Notes: a model not told the origin generated them from the letters alone. A stretch of DNA of 64,000 nucleotides from Coprothermobacter proteolyticus DSM 5265 (GCF_000020945.1 NC_011295.1:1360913-1424912); one strand, 5' to 3'; positions 12,874 to 24,060 are shown, counted from the first letter of the stretch. Numbers and translations: made by a program.

Positions 12874-14325
12874 TCATGTGCTAACATGGTCTTGCTTCAC
12901 CACGATGTCGGGAATAGCAGCTTTGAATTCAGGATCCATAAGATGGATTTGCCTCTTGACAATGGCACGCTTCTCCAAAGCAGGCTTCAGACAATACGTC
13001 TCGAACTCCTCTTTAGTTATTTGGGAACTATCAGTAATGTGCGGAAAAAGGATCTTCAGATAGGCCGTACACAATCTTTTTACCGCGGTTACATCTCTGG
13101 TATCTGCTTTAGGTGGTATATCTAGCAGCTCATCAACTATGGCCGCATATTCGCTACGCTCTCTTACTTTGTGTAGTATCTCGGAGAAAAACTCCACATT
13201 TAGTGTGTACCCGCTAACTTTCATATCCTCATTTATGCGGGGTAAATGCCACCCCTCGATGAAACCATGAAATCTGTCAAGTAAAGCAGAATCGCGGAAG
13301 AAGTCAGGCAAATGACTAAAGTAAATATCGTTTATGGGCTTATGTTCACTAGTTAAAGGAATATTGCCAAGAAGCATGAAACCGGCCTCAGAGGTCTTGG
13401 TAACATCTGCAATGGTAAACTTCCCAAGCTCCAGATAGTTCTTGAGCGCACCTTTAAGTTCTTCTTCCTCCGCGAATTTTAAAGTTTCTATTTCATCCAG
13501 AGCAACAAAATCGTACCTGGTAATGTAGCCAAAAGACCGACGTGAGATATCGTAAAACATCTTTGCTCTGGTCACTGTGCCTCCACTTATGCACCAACCG
13601 TATTTTGTTAAGTTGTTGAAAATGTATGACTTCCCCGTACCTTTTGGAGCAAGTTCAATCATGTTCAGCCTTGGCTCAACGAAGACGAGCAATCTGCTAA
13701 GGAATAGCAGTTTTTGCTGGGCACTCTCGAAACCTGTAGGCATGTATTCCATGGCTCTTATGAGAACATCAATCCACTCCTCCAAGGTGAACTCCTTACG
13801 CCCTTCCTTAAAGTAATCCAAGTCCACTTCATAAGGTTTGAAAGGTTTAAAATCCATAACCGAGATATGTCCTGGTGTGTGCTCATCCTCAGGCTCGTAA
13901 ACCAACGTAAATATGCCCCATATTTCATCTGCCATTAGCTCCGGATGAGCTTCTATAAGAGATCGAGGTATTATGCCTTCCCCTGGACCTATGCCGAAAT
14001 CTGGTATGGAAAAGCGTATGATGCCCTTCTTAATGTCTGCTTGTGTCTGTACGCGCGCCAACACCGTATATGGTTCTTGAGTCTGAACAAGCTGTTTCTT
14101 GATAATCTGTGCTTGCTTCTTATCTGGGAGAAACCTGTCAAGGTAACTAAGCAGACCTTGCTTATCCAGTGTGCCGTCTTCATCAGTGAACTTTTTTATG
14201 AGCCAATCTTTTATGAAGGATGGTATGTTTCTACCACTAAAGACGCCATAATTTTGTGGCATTTTGTAAACGGATTCATCCGGGAAAACGTCCCTTATCT
14301 TCCTGTCTAAGTCCTCGCTCATCAT
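12874..14325 (-). CDS. brxL: BrxL, BREX AAA+ ATPase (short form)
   Basis: 483 residues. Walker A PKGTGKS lies near residue 230 and Walker B ALDEIE near 276; the stretches around them match the Lon-related BrxL family. BrxL is a core BREX component that assembles on DNA. The longer BrxL of type 1 systems carries an additional Lon-like C-terminal domain of about 200 residues. It is absent here, with the protein ending soon after the ATPase lid. ATGs at 14325 and 14322 are both possible after AAAGGGG; the pglZ stop overlaps them, indicating coupled translation. Confidence 0.88.
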   Translation of the reverse strand: MMSEDLDRKIRDVFPDESVYKMPQNYGVFSGRNIPSFIKDWLIKKFTDEDGTLDKQGLLSYLDRFLPDKKQAQIIKKQLVQTQEPYTVLARVQTQADIKKGIIRFSIPDFGIGPGEGIIPRSLIEAHPELMADEIWGIFTLVYEPEDEHTPGHISVMDFKPFKPYEVDLDYFKEGRKEFTLEEWIDVLIRAMEYMPTGFESAQQKLLFLSRLLVFVEPRLNMIELAPKGTGKSYIFNNLTKYGWCISGGTVTRAKMFYDISRRSFGYITRYDFVALDEIETLKFAEEEELKGALKNYLELGKFTIADVTKTSEAGFMLLGNIPLTSEHKPINDIYFSHLPDFFRDSALLDRFHGFIEGWHLPRINEDMKVSGYTLNVEFFSEILHKVRERSEYAAIVDELLDIPPKADTRDVTAVKRLCTAYLKILFPHITDSSQITKEEFETYCLKPALEKRAIVKRQIHLMDPEFKAAIPDIVVKQDHVST

Positions 14326-16631
14326 AAGCCCCTTTCTTCAATCCCACCCTTAACTTTGAATTGTACTTCCTGTTCAAATCCGGGTACTGTGATTTTAGCC
14401 ACATAATCACCTGATCGGAGGTTTTTCAGGCTAACTTCGAACCAATCCTTTGTTCGTGTTGCTTCATACCTGTTAGACCCAATGACTACCTCCGGAACAG
14501 CTTTGGGTTCGGGTTTTAACCGAAAACGAAGTACACGGTTTCGCACAGATATGCTAGGTGTCTCCAACTCTACTTCGTATTCTACTTTCTTAGCCACTCT
14601 GGCGAAAATGACCGGAACCAAAACTTCTTCAGGTGTTGCCCCACCATGGGACTCTCTTTTTGGCGTTTGCGAAACGGATATGTGCCTTAACGCAAGTACG
14701 AATTTTCTCTCACTTTCTGGATCCTCGTAAACAACAACATCCTCATCGTGTGGCACCTTCTGTCCCGGGTCAAGCTCGGCGTAACGCCCTTCGTCGCGAA
14801 CCTTCTCGAACTTAAACTTATGTACTTTTTGAAACTTATTGCATGCAAAAACCGTAAACCCATGATCAGAAACCAGGCAAAAGTCCTTCTTCAAAGAAGC
14901 CAAAGGCGGGAGGATTTCGTCTGCGACCAACTCCAGCTCCTTAACTAAATCATCCGGGTATTGGTATGTGGTTTTGCCATGAATGTAGCTGTCCAGTGCA
15001 TCAATTCTTTCAATACCTTGAAACATATTAGAACCTGTGGTGCTTGGCAAGTTCGCTCTGGCAAGATGAACTTCCGCTTCGTATCCCATTTCCTCCAATT
15101 TTTTGCACACCAATGATGCAAACTCCATGCCCAAACCATCTACCCAATGGAGTGAGCCGCAAATATCACCACCAATTAACTTTGCGGCCGTAGGTAAAGA
15201 GTAATACCAATCGTAAAAAGAAGATTCATCCTTGTTTAAGTCTTCCAGCAAGGATTCTAATTCGTCAGTAATTGTATTTCTTAACTTGCAGCGCTTGTAT
15301 TCATTTATGTAGGCAAGTAGTTTATCAGTAAATGGCGAATCGCTAACCACGTTCACATCTGAAAGGTAGTAGTGAAGAGCAGAATACTTATCTTTTAAGT
15401 CATTCACTAACTCCCAGTTTCTAACTAGCCATTTCCTCTCAGCAAAGGTAATTCCGGTTACCAAGGGCGCTAAAGTCGATGGATCACCCGTGCTTAGCTT
15501 CTCTTCCAGCTCACGTTCTATTTGAATCGGAACCCGTTTGCCTAAGAGTGTATGTATGTCGCGAAGAACAACGAAGCGCTGAGCCAACAACTCTTTTGAA
15601 AGCGTTTCTTGAAAAGGACTCATCCAACACTGTTCAACAAACTCCTCAACCGACATACCACGCATGGCTCCAAATGTTAATCTAACAAACTCTAACGCAT
15701 CGTCATCAGTACAACGCACAACGAAGTTCTTAATGACCCATCTTTCATAATCATTTTTCGATTTACTAACAAAAATATCTGTCCAATTAGCTTCTTCTGC
15801 ATTGTTGAGGTTGTATTTTTTCTCCAGCAGCGTCCTCACTGAATGTAATTTAGTATTTCTAAACTCATTAATTAGCTCGGTCCAAAAGCCCTCTTCACCC
15901 TTTTCGTATGGAATACAGCTAACATCGATGTGCATTACCTTTTGTAAGAATTCAGGCGGCGTATCTAAATCAATAAAGGATACAACGTCGTCTGAGCAAT
16001 AACAGGTTTTCGTGCGCAAAGTTTGAGAACAACATATGAACTCGTTCTGCTTGGGTCCTTGCCAAAGTCCAGCTAGCGACTTGACATCGGGCAAAACATT
16101 TCTTCCGTTGATTTGGTAGTCAAACCGCAGCATGTTAACACGAACCGTACTTCTTGGGCTGTCCAGTACCCATCTGGGATCAATACCAATATGCCTTCTA
16201 CGTTTGTCCCAAAACACCGCATCAAAACGCTCAGCCAAACCCTCCAGGATTACGTATATACGGCGGTTAGGTGTTCTAAGCGAATTCTCAAACTCCATGA
16301 GACTGCTCACAAGGAGGCCAAACTCATCATCTGACCAAAAACGAATCAAGTTCCCTGCAGAGACAACGACTAAGTCTCCGTCTTGTGTGCTTATCTCCTG
16401 TAAAAGAGTACTAGCTGTAGGAAAACCGTCTGAGCTGAAATTCAGCGGAAAAACATTGGACACATCAACTACCATGGCCGACCTTTGTTTCAACATTTCC
16501 ACAATGTTCTTTACGGTCCACACATCTTTCACAAAGATGAAGCGAACAGGGTAACGCGTTGCAGAAGGAATATTTGACGCCTTATCCTGGTTAACCAAAG
16601 CAGCAAGTTCATCAAAGCCAGTCACATTCAT
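14322..16631 (-). CDS. pglZ: PglZ, BREX alkaline-phosphatase-superfamily protein
   Basis: About 769 residues. The C-terminal half has the metal-site landmarks of the PglZ/alkaline phosphatase fold: WVDGLGMEF, LVSDHGF and SHGGATPEEVLVP. PglZ is the signature protein of all BREX systems. The N-terminal half is poorly conserved. The start is ambiguous: ATG 16631 after TTAGGTG fits best, and GTG 16640 would overlap brxC by 8 bases. It lies between brxC and brxL with essentially no spacing, so all three are one transcription unit. Confidence 0.9.
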   Translation of the reverse strand: MNVTGFDELAALVNQDKASNIPSATRYPVRFIFVKDVWTVKNIVEMLKQRSAMVVDVSNVFPLNFSSDGFPTASTLLQEISTQDGDLVVVSAGNLIRFWSDDEFGLLVSSLMEFENSLRTPNRRIYVILEGLAERFDAVFWDKRRRHIGIDPRWVLDSPRSTVRVNMLRFDYQINGRNVLPDVKSLAGLWQGPKQNEFICCSQTLRTKTCYCSDDVVSFIDLDTPPEFLQKVMHIDVSCIPYEKGEEGFWTELINEFRNTKLHSVRTLLEKKYNLNNAEEANWTDIFVSKSKNDYERWVIKNFVVRCTDDDALEFVRLTFGAMRGMSVEEFVEQCWMSPFQETLSKELLAQRFVVLRDIHTLLGKRVPIQIERELEEKLSTGDPSTLAPLVTGITFAERKWLVRNWELVNDLKDKYSALHYYLSDVNVVSDSPFTDKLLAYINEYKRCKLRNTITDELESLLEDLNKDESSFYDWYYSLPTAAKLIGGDICGSLHWVDGLGMEFASLVCKKLEEMGYEAEVHLARANLPSTTGSNMFQGIERIDALDSYIHGKTTYQYPDDLVKELELVADEILPPLASLKKDFCLVSDHGFTVFACNKFQKVHKFKFEKVRDEGRYAELDPGQKVPHDEDVVVYEDPESERKFVLALRHISVSQTPKRESHGGATPEEVLVPVIFARVAKKVEYEVELETPSISVRNRVLRFRLKPEPKAVPEVVIGSNRYEATRTKDWFEVSLKNLRSGDYVAKITVPGFEQEVQFKVKGGIEERGL

Positions 16632-16632
16632 G

Positions 16633-19600
16633 TTATTCACCTAACCCAAGTTCACGCACTAGCCACTCACAAACCTCAGGATATTCCTCAATCAGGCGTA
16701 ACATTATCTCTTTAAGATCGTGAGAGCCGCTCTCTATGGTTTCTCTTAGTTTGTTCTTCTTTTGTTCACCTTTCAAAACGTCAATTCGTCGTTTCAGTTG
16801 TTCATTAAACTTCTCTTCATTCCAGTAAAAATCAGTATCTTTCAGTACTTGCCTTACTTCTCGTAACAACTGCCTCACTGTAGCATCGTCCAAGTCATAT
16901 AGGCTAAAGCTTTCCTCCAACAAAATCTTCATGTACAAGCTAGCGCTTTCTGGGGTTAAAAGCTCTTTCAGCTGGGGCTCAGAAGCTTTTATTCGTTTGG
17001 CTAAATTCCCTAAGTGCTCAGCGTCTTGCTTTGAACCTGCACTCCTAACAACATCGGCAATGTCAGACAGTAAACTTCTTAAATTAGAATCTTGTGCGAT
17101 CTTTTCAAAAAACCAGTATGGGTAACCAACTCTGTCCAACCATTCCTGTATTCCAGAACTCAAATCAGTCATGTTGCTAACCGATTCGAGTCCGAATAAA
17201 CGCGCCGTAGTAAGGAGGAAGTCCTTAATAGTAATAACTTCACGTAACTGGTCTTCTGTTATTTTCCAAACTTCGCCTCCAGCCAGCCGCACTAAGTCTT
17301 GGCCAACATTAGCAGTGGTATCACAATTGCATCGCTGTGCCCAAATACTGAGTGCCTTCGAACCCACAACGGGACTGAAATTGCTTGCCAGTACGTCTTC
17401 CTTGCCCCTAAGCAAGTTAACGTATTTACCGTAATCAAACATGGCGCCAGAACCTTCACTACTAACTACCAAAGTGTTGAGTGCCATAACTGCATCACTG
17501 AAGTCTTCATCATTGTAAAAATACTTAAACAGCCAGATAGGATAACCTACTTCGTTGTTTATTTTTTGGCGGACCGCTTTTACAGTCGTACCCACCTCCG
17601 GCAAGTCTTCCTCAAGCCTGAAAATCTTGCCTATTATTTTCGCCAGTTGCTTTTCTGTTTCTGAAGCTTCTTTCTCCTGGCCCCATTTTTGTAGCTGTAA
17701 CCTCAACTTGTCTTCTTTCCAAAGTGCTACTTGTTCCTGCATATTGCGAGTCAAATACTCTTTAACAGATGGAATGTCATCGGGCAACACAGTCGCAACG
17801 TCGTCTTGCTGTTGAAGCCATTCTTCAAATGCTCTATTAAGCTTTTCTATGTCCAAAGCTCGTGTGAGAAATGGCTCAAACCTTTGCAGCAATTTATAAA
17901 AACTTGAAATCGATTCTTGGTTCAATTCACTGTCAGGCGAGCTTACCAGCTTATCAATCACCGTTACGATGAAATTGGTAGTATTCTCTTTAACGTTATC
18001 CAGACCTTTGAGCTCATCCACATACTTTAGAACCCACACTGGCACTCTTGCTTTTTCAGTAAACCACTTTCTTACACCCCATCTCACATTGGTCAAGTTT
18101 TCATTCTCTTGTAAATCAAAAAGCTTGGTAAGCAAACTTACTAAAGAGCTCTCTTCTTCGGAGCCAAGTCTGACACGAAGCTCATCTGAAGCAACCCCAC
18201 CGTTATCGAAAGAATCTAGAAGTTTTACCACCTTGCTACCCATTTGGTCGGGCGTTATTTTTATTCCGCTGTTTGCCTGGAATATTTTGTTTATGTAAGG
18301 ACGCAAGGCAAAAGCAAGAGCAGCGGTGTTTACCTCGTTCGCATAAAGCCCGTACGGTTCATAAGCCAAGAAACCCAGGACAGCTCGCAAACTGAAAGTG
18401 GATCCTCTGTTATTCTCTAATGCTCGTTCTACTTCTTTGCATATTTTTACTAGTGGGTGGTCACCATCCGTCAAGTCCTTTTTCAAAAACAGCTTGTTAT
18501 CTACAATGTATTCCCCATTTGTCCTGAACATGGCCATGATCATGTTGTACCTGGCATTGTTTCTTGTTCTTTGCACTAGATCCTCATAGCTTTGAGCAGC
18601 ACAGAAAATCTGAGCCAATTTTTCTGCCCTTTTCTTCTCCCAAATGTTCTTATTCTGTGTAAGGTCTTCTATGTTTTCCAAACCAAATTCAAAGATATCT
18701 TTACTGTGGTTGTTTAGAACTGTGGGCAGAGAACTAAAGCTCACGTTCTGCTTGCCCTGTTTACTGAAAACCATAGCTGTACCTTTTTCTATGGAACTAG
18801 CAAAGTTTTCTGCGAACTTGCGTGCCCACTTCTCATTTTCAATAGCTGATTCGTACCCATGTTCCCTTGCCACAGCCGATTTCGCCTTGTATGTTATGAA
18901 CTTGTCAAACTCCTTTTCGCCCAGGGTATTCCGAGCTACCACAAAAACCACGCTATGCGGATTAGATTCTTGCGGAGTCTTCATAATTTCGTCAATGACG
19001 CTCTCTATGTTCCTAAGCTCATCTTCAGATCTCCCAACAAAAATGGCAACTTTCAGAGCATATGGCTTTTTAAAATCCTCGCGTAGTACTTTTTTCACTT
19101 CATAGTTTCGGGAATTAGCCCCGTAAATTCCGATATCCAACTCCCTTAGCACGTTCTTGCGTAAGCCAGACAGCAAATTATTGTAAAGATCGTCGTATTC
19201 TTTAATGAGTTTTGAGACGTCCTCGTATTTCTTACCAAATTCTACTTTCTTTTTCTTTACCTCATCCTCAGGCAAATTACTAACAGCCACCTCGTAAAGC
19301 CCATCAGCAGTCAAATCAAATATTTCTCTGTCCACAAGATAACCTAATACATCCGTAACTGCCTCTTCTAAGGTCGTCCCTGCAAAAGCACCTCTTATGT
19401 TTTCTTCAGAGGGCAAGAGTAGGTTAACTCCAGCCATGGCGGAGCTCCCACCCACAAACGTGTACAAAACATTTAGCAGGAGAATAACGCGAAATACGGC
19501 GCCATAGGCGGAGCCCCTATTGTCAAGATCATCTTTGTACTGAGTGAACTTTTGTAGAATGGAGCGCATTTTTTCTGATTCTGAGTTCTCAAATTCCTCT

Positions 19601-20892
19601 ACAAAGAAATCCCATAGCGTGGGTGCAGTGAGAAAGTATTCCGTACTTCCATGGAACTCCTTAGGGTATTCCTTCATGAAACCATTGAATCCCTTTTCCT
19701 CATCGTACAAAAAGCTGAATATGGTTCTTTCCGCGGAACCTACATGGTCAGCCAGTTTGGCTGCCAAGAAAGCCGTGTAAGGATGAATGGGAAATACATC
19801 GCTCACTATTCTCTTGATATCGGCCCCATCAGTACTGGTTAGCCTTAGTATGAGGTTAGTTATTGATGTGTTCCGTAAACACTGATCCCTTAGTATTTTC
19901 CACTGCTCCGGATCTTTTTTCTTGATGGCATGGGCAATGATATCGTAAGTTGTAATTTCTTCCATTCTGTAAGTTTTGCTAATGAATCTGTCGAGAACCT
20001 TTTTCTCGTCTTCGGTATAAGCAATTTGTTCAGGATCCCTATGACTAACCACGAACAAATATATGTCTGATGAGAATGTCTTCTCGGCGATGTTTTGCAG
20101 TAGTGTGAGTATTTCAGGAGCCCTTCTCTGTATGTCCAATACGGACGTAAATTCGTCCCAATAAATAGCCATAGAAGTTGCAACATCCTGCGCTTTTAAT
20201 TCCTTTACAACTTCTTCAAGCCATGTTTCGATATCCGCAGTAGGCAACAGAACATCGCCAAGAGCCTTACGGAAAGCCTTTAGCACCTCTACGTTACCAT
20301 GTTCAAGTGCTGTTATTAGTCCATCTCTGTTACCCACCATGGCCCGCAACTGCGGTTTCTCATTTAGGAATACGTCCCAATCATGCCCGTATTTTTCCTG
20401 CTCAAGAACGTGCCTCTTGTATTGCTCAAACTCCGTTAACGGTGTAATGTCTAACCCTTCTTGGTTCAATGCTCTTTTCACAGCATTCTGTATTGCCCAC
20501 TTGAATGAGAGTCCATCATTGATAGAACCACTACCTTTAAGGACAACCGGAAATACACGGTTCCTATGACGGAAGTTCTCCAATTTTTTCTGTAGCTGAG
20601 GTTTAACATTGCCTAGTTGGTCAACAAACTCTTCTATGTCCTCCCACGGGTCCCACAGCAGGTGTTTTACAACGCTTGTAGCGTGACTCTTTCCAACACC
20701 ATACTTACCTTGAAGCCAAATGGATCTCTTTGTTCTTGGATCCGACGATTCTAAAGCCTCCAAAAAACTACTTAGCAGGTCAATAAAAGAATCCACTGGA
20801 ATGAACTGTTTCCAGCCATTCTTGATTTCATCAGTTAGGTCATAAGCTGGCTTGAAGTTTTCGTAAAGCCCCAAAATCTCTGAGTATCTCAC
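16633..20892 (-). CDS. brxC: BrxC/PglY, large BREX P-loop ATPase
   Basis: About 1419 residues, the usual size of this family (DUF6079-like). The P-loop GKYGVGKSH lies near residues 61-69 and a Walker B-like WDEFTS near residue 240. The remainder is long, mostly helical and without recognisable catalytic motifs. It forms the BREX core with PglZ. The start is GTG 20892 because GGGGGTGG precedes it; the frame is open slightly further. It follows the free-standing DUF4007-like gene with almost no gap. Confidence 0.9.
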   Translation of the reverse strand: MRYSEILGLYENFKPAYDLTDEIKNGWKQFIPVDSFIDLLSSFLEALESSDPRTKRSIWLQGKYGVGKSHATSVVKHLLWDPWEDIEEFVDQLGNVKPQLQKKLENFRHRNRVFPVVLKGSGSINDGLSFKWAIQNAVKRALNQEGLDITPLTEFEQYKRHVLEQEKYGHDWDVFLNEKPQLRAMVGNRDGLITALEHGNVEVLKAFRKALGDVLLPTADIETWLEEVVKELKAQDVATSMAIYWDEFTSVLDIQRRAPEILTLLQNIAEKTFSSDIYLFVVSHRDPEQIAYTEDEKKVLDRFISKTYRMEEITTYDIIAHAIKKKDPEQWKILRDQCLRNTSITNLILRLTSTDGADIKRIVSDVFPIHPYTAFLAAKLADHVGSAERTIFSFLYDEEKGFNGFMKEYPKEFHGSTEYFLTAPTLWDFFVEEFENSESEKMRSILQKFTQYKDDLDNRGSAYGAVFRVILLLNVLYTFVGGSSAMAGVNLLLPSEENIRGAFAGTTLEEAVTDVLGYLVDREIFDLTADGLYEVAVSNLPEDEVKKKKVEFGKKYEDVSKLIKEYDDLYNNLLSGLRKNVLRELDIGIYGANSRNYEVKKVLREDFKKPYALKVAIFVGRSEDELRNIESVIDEIMKTPQESNPHSVVFVVARNTLGEKEFDKFITYKAKSAVAREHGYESAIENEKWARKFAENFASSIEKGTAMVFSKQGKQNVSFSSLPTVLNNHSKDIFEFGLENIEDLTQNKNIWEKKRAEKLAQIFCAAQSYEDLVQRTRNNARYNMIMAMFRTNGEYIVDNKLFLKKDLTDGDHPLVKICKEVERALENNRGSTFSLRAVLGFLAYEPYGLYANEVNTAALAFALRPYINKIFQANSGIKITPDQMGSKVVKLLDSFDNGGVASDELRVRLGSEEESSLVSLLTKLFDLQENENLTNVRWGVRKWFTEKARVPVWVLKYVDELKGLDNVKENTTNFIVTVIDKLVSSPDSELNQESISSFYKLLQRFEPFLTRALDIEKLNRAFEEWLQQQDDVATVLPDDIPSVKEYLTRNMQEQVALWKEDKLRLQLQKWGQEKEASETEKQLAKIIGKIFRLEEDLPEVGTTVKAVRQKINNEVGYPIWLFKYFYNDEDFSDAVMALNTLVVSSEGSGAMFDYGKYVNLLRGKEDVLASNFSPVVGSKALSIWAQRCNCDTTANVGQDLVRLAGGEVWKITEDQLREVITIKDFLLTTARLFGLESVSNMTDLSSGIQEWLDRVGYPYWFFEKIAQDSNLRSLLSDIADVVRSAGSKQDAEHLGNLAKRIKASEPQLKELLTPESASLYMKILLEESFSLYDLDDATVRQLLREVRQVLKDTDFYWNEEKFNEQLKRRIDVLKGEQKKNKLRETIESGSHDLKEIMLRLIEEYPEVCEWLVRELGLGE

Positions 20893-20894
20893 TG

Positions 20895-21692
20895 TTACCC
20901 ACCCCCTGTGGAAATACACATTTTTAGCACGTCAACCTCATTAAGCCCTTCATCCAAATCCAGGTAAACTTTGTCATTGGTCCAGGTAACCTTGAAGAGC
21001 TTTTCGCTTTTGCTACTCCCCAACACATCTGCCAACTCTGCCGATGTTATGCAAAAAATCTTTTGCGGTGACTCAACATATGGTTCCATATCTTCAATGG
21101 ATATGGAGAACATTTCATGTTTCCTAGCAAACATGTAGAAAGCATAGATAACTTCCACTAAGTTGAGCTTTGGATGTCCAATTTTCTGAACAATTCTGCT
21201 TCGGCCCGATTTAATGACCTCTCCTTGGCGCAAATCCTTCCCAATTGGTGTGGACTGAAGGGTACTTATAAGGGAATTAGTAATGTTTGTCAAAGTTCTC
21301 TCTCGTTTATCAGTTTGTCGCAACTCCTGAAGCATGCTCTCTCTCGTATAATTACCGGGTGGTTGGTTTGCCCACCATAGAAAGATTCCCGAGTTATGAC
21401 AAAGATTTGCCCATATAATCGCCCACACGCTCAGCACAGAAAGTGAACCTAAAGAATAACCAAACCTGACAACATCACATAACTCCGTGCTTTTTCTGTT
21501 TCTTTCTATGAAACCAGCATCCCTCAAGTATTCATTTAAGGCTGTCTTTTGCTTGGGCCCTAATGTGTTATTACGAAGATAGTCTTCTCCAAGATTCAAG
21601 AATGATGTCATCCATTCTTCTCGAAGACCAAAATTAGAGTACCTTTCCCTTATAGCATCAACCAATTCGTCATAGGAGTCAAATGTCCACAT
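20895..21692 (-). CDS. Free-standing DUF4007-like protein, paralogue of the BrxP C-terminal module
   Basis: 265 residues, ATG 21692 overlapping the end of brxP by 14 bases. Its N-terminal 60 residues align plainly with the C-terminal part of BrxP: both have FGLR-x-EW, a run ending LGPKQ, then LRDA and a basic R-K stretch. The C-terminal half is more diverged. DUF4007-like proteins occur beside DndC/PAPS-reductase-like genes, which supports a role in recognising or building a sulfur-based DNA mark, but the biochemical role is unknown. It sits between brxP and brxC, where a four-gene type 4 BREX would have nothing. Confidence 0.8.
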   Translation of the reverse strand: MWTFDSYDELVDAIRERYSNFGLREEWMTSFLNLGEDYLRNNTLGPKQKTALNEYLRDAGFIERNRKSTELCDVVRFGYSLGSLSVLSVWAIIWANLCHNSGIFLWWANQPPGNYTRESMLQELRQTDKRERTLTNITNSLISTLQSTPIGKDLRQGEVIKSGRSRIVQKIGHPKLNLVEVIYAFYMFARKHEMFSISIEDMEPYVESPQKIFCITSAELADVLGSSKSEKLFKVTWTNDKVYLDLDEGLNEVDVLKMCISTGGG

Positions 21693-24060
21693 TTTCAGAT
21701 AGCAGCTCCTTGTAGTCCTTGACCGAAGGGTCCAAGTGAATGTTGTCCAAGTCCGCTACCAAATCCACGCTGACAAGTCCTTTGTAGTATTCTTGCATCC
21801 CACGAAGCAGCCGCTCTAAGCTTTGCCTTTCTACGCCAAAAATGACGTAGGGCCCACCATAAGCACTGTTGGATTCGTTATAAAGCTCCTTTACCGTAAG
21901 GTTGTAATACCCTTTGCGTATTGCATAGCGGTAAAGCGAATAAAGGACTGCTGCTGGATGCACATCGTTCGTACCCATCTTTAAAGCCACTCGTTCTCGG
22001 TCATGTCTCACCACAGAAACAACACCGAGCTTTTGCAGATATTGATTAGCTTCGAAAGTGTTAAACAACCCATCGATACCGTTTGATATTGTTCTTTTGG
22101 TTATGGTAAGCCCCTCGTTTTCCACCATTTGCTTGAGCTCGTTTGAAGAGTAAGCTTTACCCCATGGGACTCTGCTCAGGTACCAAAACACTGGAGCAGA
22201 ATTGTAAAACAGATTAACCCACACTAGTTCAAAAGCCAGCAGCTCGTCCTTTTCAAATATGCCCTTTAGGTGCTCATAAAAGGGTGTTACTGTTTTCCTC
22301 TTACTATCGATAAGCTCTGCATCACGTAACCAATAAAGCATGGCTTCAACTTGTTTAGGGCCAAGAATGTTGTCTGAAAACCAATTGTTTCCCTTCATCA
22401 TGAAATCCTTTAACCATTCGCTTCTCAGCCCAAAAGTCAAATAGTTTCCAAAACCAGACAGCGTCGACATGGTATTGCCTCCCTCCTTTTGACTTACCAA
22501 AGTTGCCACAGATTTTGCTCTAAGGCAACCCTTTTCAACAAAATCCAAACAGCTGTAACAATGAATGCATTTGCTTGTGTTCACCAAAACCGATGGGATA
22601 ACAGATAATGCACCCGTAGGGCATTCAACTTCACATACTCCGCAGTGCGCACAGTAAGTCGATTTATAGGCAACTTTGTTAAGTCTTCCAAGAAGTAGCT
22701 TGTCGCCTTTTATTCCATCAATGTCAACTATGGCACGTCCAGCAGTGTTTTTATCGACAGAAAAATGCAGCGTTCTATTTGATACCAGAAGATCTCCTTC
22801 CAACTTCCCATTGTCACTCGCAACCCTCACAGGACCAAGTACTTTTATCCATTCTTCAAATCTGTCGCCGGGATCATTTAGAACAAATCGTTGACCTTCT
22901 TCTTTCTGGATGATGTCCAAGCGTGTTTTCCCCGTGTCGACGCCCTCACCGCCACCGCGTTTTTTCCAGTTACCCTCGGAGATGTACTTTCTTACTTCAG
23001 CCTTATCTTCTATGCCGAGGGATTCTACTGTTTTCTCTACTTGGTTGATAAAGCTCTTTACAGTTTCTAAGTAGCCCCTTCCTATCATGTACTCTGTCCA
23101 TTGCGAGGCAAACGGACAAACACTGCAACCAACTCTGTCTAACCCGAGGCGATATGCCGTGTTCAAAGGAAGTTCTCTAGCAAGTATGTACGTGTAAACT
23201 TCTGTTGTCGTCCAGCGCTTAATTACCTCAGCATTTATTTGCGTAAAATGCTTCACGTTCTCAGCAAGCCTGGAGTAACCTTTTCTTCGTGTGCTTTCTT
23301 CTTCCCTAACACCATCAAAAACCACAATCCGCACACCATCGTTTCTGCCAACTATTTCACGAACTAACCTTATCATGGGCGCACTCTTATGCACTGAACA
23401 GCACCACCTCAAGAGTCGACTAGGTGGACCAAATTCCTTCCAAGTTGCCTCCGCCGGTTTCCAGTTCCTTGCCGTGTAGAACTTTAGTTCAGGGTACGTT
23501 TCCCTGTATTTCCTCTTTGTTTCTTCGAAAGCTTCGTAAGTGGGGGGTATTTCCATGGTAGTGTCCGTAAAAATCACAAAATAATCCTCAGGTGGAATAA
23601 CTTTGGAAACAATGTCCAATATGACTTGCGAATCCTTACCAGCACTAAAGGAAACCACGAAAGCGCTGACCTTTCCTTTATATCTTTTATATATGTGGTT
23701 CACGAAGTCAATGGCTTCATTCTCCAAAACTTCCAACTGCTCTTTGTTCTTTTCAAGCATAGCTTGAAGTTTTACCGGCTCAAGACCAAGTCCTTTTCCT
23801 GCATCCGTAAGTTCTATGCGGGGCCTCTCGTAAATACCGCCACCTTTTGCCTCAGCTACCATGGTACCTTTGTAGTAGTATCTTCGACCAGTACGCCACA
23901 AAAGTGGTTCTTTGGTATGCGGATATTTCCAGAACTCATTGAAGCCAAGTAGCTCCAATTCCTCAAAGAAGACCGGACGAGGACTTACAATTAGTGTGTT
24001 TTTGCTTTCGGAAGTTAGTACGATTCCGTTAGTTTCCAAATCCCAGTTAACGTTGTACAT
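21679..24060 (-). CDS. brxP: BrxP: PAPS-reductase/DndC-like domain, 4Fe-4S ferredoxin domain and DUF4007-like C-terminus
   Basis: About 793 residues and the first gene of the BREX operon. The PP-loop SFSAGKDS (about 138-146) is the ATP-pyrophosphatase signature of PAPS reductases and DndC. Cys motifs follow (RWCCSVHK and VGCSVCPF, near 310). A two-cluster ferredoxin module lies near 470-510 (CAHCGVCEVECP and CIHCYSC). From about residue 530 comes a DUF4007-like module. A PAPS-reductase gene in place of the methylase PglX defines BREX type 4. DndC relatives act in DNA phosphorothioation, so a sulfur-based mark is inferred. ATG 24060 follows AAGGGG; GTG 24066 is an alternative. Confidence 0.88.
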   Translation of the reverse strand: MYNVNWDLETNGIVLTSESKNTLIVSPRPVFFEELELLGFNEFWKYPHTKEPLLWRTGRRYYYKGTMVAEAKGGGIYERPRIELTDAGKGLGLEPVKLQAMLEKNKEQLEVLENEAIDFVNHIYKRYKGKVSAFVVSFSAGKDSQVILDIVSKVIPPEDYFVIFTDTTMEIPPTYEAFEETKRKYRETYPELKFYTARNWKPAEATWKEFGPPSRLLRWCCSVHKSAPMIRLVREIVGRNDGVRIVVFDGVREEESTRRKGYSRLAENVKHFTQINAEVIKRWTTTEVYTYILARELPLNTAYRLGLDRVGCSVCPFASQWTEYMIGRGYLETVKSFINQVEKTVESLGIEDKAEVRKYISEGNWKKRGGGEGVDTGKTRLDIIQKEEGQRFVLNDPGDRFEEWIKVLGPVRVASDNGKLEGDLLVSNRTLHFSVDKNTAGRAIVDIDGIKGDKLLLGRLNKVAYKSTYCAHCGVCEVECPTGALSVIPSVLVNTSKCIHCYSCLDFVEKGCLRAKSVATLVSQKEGGNTMSTLSGFGNYLTFGLRSEWLKDFMMKGNNWFSDNILGPKQVEAMLYWLRDAELIDSKRKTVTPFYEHLKGIFEKDELLAFELVWVNLFYNSAPVFWYLSRVPWGKAYSSNELKQMVENEGLTITKRTISNGIDGLFNTFEANQYLQKLGVVSVVRHDRERVALKMGTNDVHPAAVLYSLYRYAIRKGYYNLTVKELYNESNSAYGGPYVIFGVERQSLERLLRGMQEYYKGLVSVDLVADLDNIHLDPSVKDYKELLSENVDI
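22468..22490 (-). promoter_or_regulatory. Strong internal ribosome binding site and in-frame ATG within brxP
   Basis: Read on the minus strand, AAAAGGAGGGAGG (22490-22478) is followed by a 7-base spacer and an in-frame ATG (22470). This is the strongest binding site in the operon. It lies exactly between the ferredoxin and the DUF4007-like modules. Initiation here would give a separate 263-residue DUF4007-like protein (21679-22470), nearly the same length as the 265-residue free-standing paralogue. Confidence 0.6.

Follow-up and report, generated by a model that had tools for sequence, protein, structure and literature searches.

The type-4 BREX operon and the predicted start site inside brxP

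The window, that is, the whole 64,000-nt stretch of Coprothermobacter proteolyticus DSM 5265 DNA that we analyzed, carries on its minus strand an operon in the order brxP, DUF4007 paralogue, brxC, pglZ and brxL, which is that of type-4 BREX (Table 1). As in other systems of this class (brxPCZL), a PAPS reductase protein, BrxP, replaces the methyltransferase (PADLOC match over the full length; PF01507, E = 8.8e-27), and BrxC, PglZ and BrxL are all encoded in the operon. Judging from SD energies and the starts of homologues, the longest ORFs open a few codons ahead of the likely true starts of pglZ (16631), brxC (20892) and brxP (24060). For brxP the longest ORF reaches GTG 24066 (795-aa reading), but the sequence makes ATG 24060 the most likely start. 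This ATG follows AAGGGGTGGAC, with an SD energy of −10.3 kcal/mol as against +0.8 for GTG 24066, and it fits the MY.V.WD with which brxP homologues open; the internal methionine discussed below is thus residue 531 of 793. PADLOC labels the stand-alone DUF4007 paralogue "BrxP" as well, though it has no PAPS reductase part, which is likely to mislead automatic annotation.

Table 1. Features of the type-4 BREX operon and of the predicted internal start site in brxP (window coordinates).
Feature	Coordinates	Strand	Description and evidence
brxP	21679..24060	minus	PAPS reductase + alpha/beta domain + ferredoxin + DUF4007 fusion, 793 aa; ORF list; Pfam PF01507/Fer4/PF13182; PADLOC BrxP PDLC02510, 1199 bits
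Ferredoxin-type 2x(4 Cys) region of brxP	22525..22653	minus	Invariant Cys columns 470-512 in A2/A3; Fer4 models
Linker, ferredoxin to DUF4007	22459..22500	minus	Residues 521-534 of 793; predicted disordered, AlphaFold2 pLDDT < 50 over exactly this segment
Internal Shine-Dalgarno (SD)	22478..22490	minus	AAAAGGAGGGAGG, read directly; anti-SD duplex −11.4 kcal/mol; equivalent in 42/43 fused homologues examined
Internal in-frame start codon	22468..22470	minus	ATG, Met 531 of 793, in frame with brxP; ATG/GTG/TTG at the equivalent place in homologues
Predicted free product	21679..22470	minus	SspB-like DUF4007 protein, 263 aa; AlphaFold2 mean pLDDT 93.9 modelled alone; superimposes on SspB 6juf/6lb9
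DUF4007 paralogue gene	20895..21692	minus	Separate gene, 265 aa; 14-nt overlap with brxP end; PADLOC PDLC02511, 636 bits; 26% identity to brxP module
brxC	16633..20892	minus	SspC-like AAA+ ATPase; likely start GTG 20892, ORF listed from 20919; PADLOC BrxC 3392 bits, SspC models too
pglZ	14322..16631	minus	Likely start ATG 16631 (SD energy); PADLOC PglZ 1862 bits
brxL	12874..14325	minus	ORF; in relatives homologous brxL comes after pglZ, and homologues align

Inside brxP the minus strand reads GTAAGTC AAAAGGAGGGAGG CAATACC ATG TCG, the spacer CAATACC being seven bases long. A preliminary description of this DNA had reported an SD, seven bases and an in-frame ATG at the boundary between the ferredoxin and DUF4007 modules, and direct reading of the sequence bears it out (SD from 22490 to 22478, ATG at 22470). 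The placement is also right, as the last ferredoxin cysteine is residue 514 in the 795-aa reading and in the 263-aa product the match to PF13182 begins at residue 12. So are the lengths it gave, 263 aa from the internal ATG and 265 aa for the adjoining paralogue, although their near equality reflects homologous domains and is not separate evidence. In an AlphaFold2 model of full BrxP (mean pLDDT 88), residues 521-534, which hold the SD and Met 531, form the only internal stretch below 50; the alignment used for AlphaFold was free of plasmid and phage rows.

Taken by itself, the internal site in the brxP of the window is not beyond chance. Equal windows in the same gene score as well, with an in-frame start and an SD as strong, in 4.0% of cases, and a test against synonymous codons gives p = 0.43 because the peptide QKEGGNTM forces purine-rich codons. 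It is conservation among relatives that carries the case. Promoter and terminator scans of brxP gave about as many hits as shuffled sequence, and we therefore propose no promoter within the gene.

Conservation of the start signal among fused homologues

Searches among relatives and several phyla, and of plasmids, phages and viral contigs, yielded 37 brxP frames that run across the junction between ferredoxin and DUF4007. The set spans several phyla and one archaeon, includes a Methanosphaera plasmid, and has a median pairwise identity of 38% in the N-terminal part of BrxP. Searches of phyla with an alignment were far richer than the contig search with a single protein, which yielded one true homologue only; the viral-contig searches returned 80 loci, mostly generic PAPS reductases with about five relevant, and no matches when the homologue L138 served as query.

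An SD-like sequence lies ahead of an in-frame linker start codon in 36 of the 37 fused genes (26 ATG, 7 GTG and 3 TTG), counts that pairs of related sequences, a few of them above 65% identity, inflate somewhat. The anti-SD duplex reaches −8 kcal/mol or lower in the linkers of 35 of the 37 genes, compared with 4.9% of windows of equal length from the rest of these genes, and −10 kcal/mol or lower in 78% as against 1.5%, the background being drawn from the brxP genes themselves and not from genome-wide SD statistics. Moreover, when six further genomes were examined by a procedure fixed beforehand, the site was present in all six. The exceptions are L138, which has an ATG without an SD, and L049, where the SD is weak (−6.1). 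L165 and L166, which by eye seemed to be two more because no SD stood close to their DUF4007 start, are not exceptions, as the automatic scan found the SD moved upstream: in the subclade of L165, L166, L195 and L196 it has shifted into Cys-Trp-Arg codons (TGTTGGAGG) and is accompanied by its own new ATG. Two BrxP frames, in genomes G804 (L189) and G733 (L188), retain 68 and 153 aa of the DUF4007 module, cut short by a frameshift, a real truncation or an assembly error. Their internal SD is intact, so the signal can outlast the full-length product for a while.

One could suppose that a Gly-Gly-x-Met-like linker peptide, or chance, merely happens to read as an SD. There is a GG in many of the linkers, and synonymous tests on single genes are often not significant (median p 0.12, and the value given above for the gene in the window). 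Nevertheless, the linker residues are not conserved across fused BrxP, and the SD is encoded in different codon frames, as KEGG (aag-gag-gga-ggc), IGG (gga-gga), SERS (gaa-agg-agt) and TEG (acg-gag-gga), apart from the Trp-Arg codons of the subclade above; the methionine, in turn, is replaced by GTG-encoded valine or TTG-encoded leucine. When the peptides were held fixed and codons redrawn from each gene's own usage, the synonymous-codon null was rejected over the fused genes combined with p = 6e-10. This explanation is already disfavoured, and we regard it as exceedingly improbable.

The position of the SD, at a domain boundary and in a linker predicted to be disordered, would also suit a programmed pause, in which the SD-like sequence slows elongation and helps the ferredoxin and PAPS modules to fold without any initiation. 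A pause, however, needs no start codon, whereas in a decoupled test an in-frame start was found 4-12 nt downstream of SD-like clusters in 36 of 46 cases in linkers (78%) as against 89 of 511 (17%) elsewhere (p = 3e-17). Also at odds with pausing are the second codon, which is AAA in 12 of 36 genes, the A content at +4 to +9 of the internal start (0.48 as against 0.31), and an RNA structure around this start that is weaker than the gene average (p = 4e-4). We give the pausing explanation very little credence. In 23 of 28 genes the main start of brxP has a weaker SD than the internal one. Read together, these sequence features mark a predicted initiation site rather than a place of pausing or a peptide motif, and the conserved internal SD plus in-frame start codon is what is found in defence subunits encoded as a gene within a gene. 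On these grounds it is highly likely that ribosomes use the internal start and that the internal product is made; brxP very probably yields both a large fused enzyme and a separate predicted DNA-binding protein.

Fold, proposed origin and putative role of the predicted free DUF4007 protein

The 263-aa product scores 28.3 bits against PF13182, with a curated cut-off of 27, and rises above this cut-off only when scanned alone. Its model, residues 1-263, superimposes on residues 5-320 of SspB (6juf_B) with Z 21.4 and an rmsd of 3.1 over 254 aligned residues, while the best chain other than SspB reaches Z 9.0, which places it in the SspB fold. As the agreement with the SspB crystal structures runs through the whole model, the internal start coincides with the beginning of SspB. 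BrxA was absent among the structural matches listed for this model, which has no bearing on its relation to BrxA. DUF4007 proteins of the SspB type have been described as triple-wHTH recognition components, and SspC as an AAA+ ATPase (PMC10853773); a survey of type-4 BREX describes the DUF4007 protein as BrxA-like and often fused to PAPS reductase (PMC12839542).

In the phylogeny of the PAPS-ferredoxin part, the fused BrxP form one branch with a support of 100/100, and their closest sister clade, of Ssp type, comprises 21 loci with a stand-alone DUF4007 gene. The gene order there is that of sspD-, sspB- and sspC-like genes (in a Treponema example PADLOC calls the second gene SspB and the third SspC), in the 20 loci where the DUF4007 gene could be placed its start is offset by −11 to +44 nt relative to the stop codon of the preceding gene, and its SD is often inside that preceding gene. 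The modules are the same as in SspB-SspC-SspD systems (PMC8092258; PMC10853773), namely an SspD-like PAPS protein, SspB/DUF4007 and SspC/BrxC, encoded in collinear genes and with the match to the SspB crystal fold. Unlike in brxP, where they are fused and accompanied by an internal start, SspD and SspB are separate genes in Ssp systems, and type-4 BREX adds PglZ and BrxL. The simplest history these sequences suggest is that a stop codon was lost between ancestral sspD and sspB, with the second start signal already at the junction, and that selection on this start continued. The best reading of the sequence comparison would be that BrxP is an SspD-SspB fusion that keeps a separate SspB-like subunit by internal initiation. 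The preliminary description had offered two readings, fused and free products from one gene, or loss of a stop between two genes, and had looked to the conservation of AGGAGG and to homologues split at the junction to judge them. The start signal is kept in nearly every fused member, so that the lack of AGGAGG conservation which it had named as refuting did not turn up, and the sister clade has two adjacent genes for the sspD-like and the sspB-like DUF4007 proteins; the comparative evidence supports both readings, as stages of one history.

Such a history would leave exactly this arrangement even if the SD and ATG were a relic of the two-gene ancestor and no longer used, given that in the split sister clade the first gene carries the second SD at or within its end. 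Yet the linker peptide has drifted, whereas the SD and start were kept or moved, and the conservation goes beyond the synonymous null. The fused genes being one branch with the low median identity given above, their synonymous sites are saturated, which further argues against an unused relic. We therefore consider a relic very unlikely.

Our best overall explanation, to which we assign a probability of about 0.8, is that in type-4 BREX brxP has a second gene nested in it, which codes for a free SspB-like subunit. The brxP ORF would encode a full SspD-type PAPS reductase/ferredoxin protein fused to a DUF4007 module, while initiation in the linker would give the DUF4007 module as a protein of its own, about 260 aa long, that corresponds to the stand-alone SspB of Ssp phosphorothioation, and selection would have preserved the second start signal since the fusion. 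The free protein would most likely join a complex with the SspC-like BrxC as an additional subunit for DNA recognition and thereby determine how many SspB-like modules there are per PAPS reductase; with fused and free DUF4007 together, recognition modules would outnumber those that transfer sulphur, much as Cas11, made inside cas8, serves Cascade. Provided that the product is made, a subunit role is the likelier course, and we infer that the protein is stable and has a stoichiometric role. The separate DUF4007 paralogue in the operon of the window might make a free module seem redundant here. Across the 37 loci, about 24 have no separate DUF4007 gene detected beside brxP and about 11 have one; the internal start is kept with and without the paralogue, which does not, then, replace it. 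A wider claim stands at even odds: that across bacteria and archaea type-4 BREX has no other source of this core DNA-recognition subunit than internal initiation within another gene. The subunit would then be essential for phosphorothioation or restriction, the working complex would accordingly contain fused as well as free modules, and all annotations would lack the subunit.

The free DUF4007 protein could instead be a regulatory short form that inhibits or titrates the complex of full-length BrxP and so restrains a potentially harmful DNA-nicking or modification complex. SspB has been described as a DNA-nicking nuclease (PMC8092258), the stronger internal SD would give an excess of the short form, and internal starts are known to give C-terminal products in other defence genes. 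In McrBC, two products, McrBL and McrBS, come from one restriction gene by internal initiation (PMC12707154), but McrBS, which modulates restriction, is without the DNA-binding domain, whereas the free product of brxP would be the DNA-binding-type module itself. Similarly, RpnS is a C-terminal gene-within-gene product of the anti-phage gene for RpnL (PMC10327210), although it is an antitoxin to RpnL from an unrelated protein family and brxP gives no sign of an antitoxin role. Against a regulatory form, the sister Ssp clade has this module as a subunit of its own with a positive function, and no conservation pattern found here points to inhibition. As nicking by SspB is reported to be essential for single-strand PT formation (PMC8092258), a positive role is the simpler carry-over, and inhibition seems to us rather unlikely.

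A positive role has a likeness in type I CRISPR, where an in-frame internal start in the large defence subunit Cas8 yields its C-terminal part as a separate small protein, Cas11, that joins the interference complex (Haloferax volcanii Cas11b; PMC11899642). CRISPR Cascade has no homology to BREX, however, and the product has been experimentally shown there, whereas for brxP it is predicted. Our full-text literature searches, whose coverage did not extend to the key paper on PT by type-4 BREX, found no report of internal initiation in BREX, and the survey of this same system (PMC12839542) says nothing, in the passages we consulted, of an internal start or of DUF4007 produced on its own from the fused gene. 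Internal initiation in defence genes is already known, and in BREX it appears to be new. If the proposal is true, type-4 BREX has a subunit that annotations have missed, and recoded (codon-optimised) brxP constructs would silently lose the free subunit, which could mislead reconstitution work. It would also add, after Cas8/Cas11, McrB and Rpn, a further phage-defence family in which one gene gives a large protein plus a separate module, and the passage from sspD-sspB to brxP would show that a gene fusion can retain a free subunit via its old start site.

Rearranged relatives of brxP

Some rows inside the fused branch look split. Two are duplicate regions of fused loci, one is a gene seemingly cut by a group II intron, and two are phage copies without DUF4007. 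These last, L050 and L052, with two PAPS-ferredoxin genes in a phage, were considered as secondary splits and rejected, as no DUF4007 follows. In the L050 contig (2364-5940) the two genes are in tandem, and the first has a Zn-finger-like domain fused at its C terminus, whereas for the second this domain is encoded in a separate overlapping ORF with its own SD-like sequence, the same fuse/unfuse pattern as in brxP with another domain. The gene that looks intron-cut is the brxP of G207, broken in the linker (L044 and L046:2244-2330, minus): one contig reads GGAGGGAAAAACATGA into a sequence like the 5′ end of a group II intron, and on a second, separate contig a group II intron domain (RF00029) stands just ahead of AAAAGGAGG...ATG and a free DUF4007 ORF.

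Finally, G197 (L035:9221-11032) offers a natural dissection that speaks for the free module: its brxP has lost the PAPS/ferredoxin part, and a 261-aa DUF4007 ORF with AGGAGG-ATG stands by itself ahead of full-length brxC, pglZ and brxL frames. The DUF4007 paralogue of this locus is frameshifted, and what remains is a BREX-4 without the sulphur-transfer enzyme, decaying or repurposed. G198 (L036:7603-8753) holds the complementary remnant, N-terminal pieces of brxP with stops, followed directly by a short pglZ fragment.
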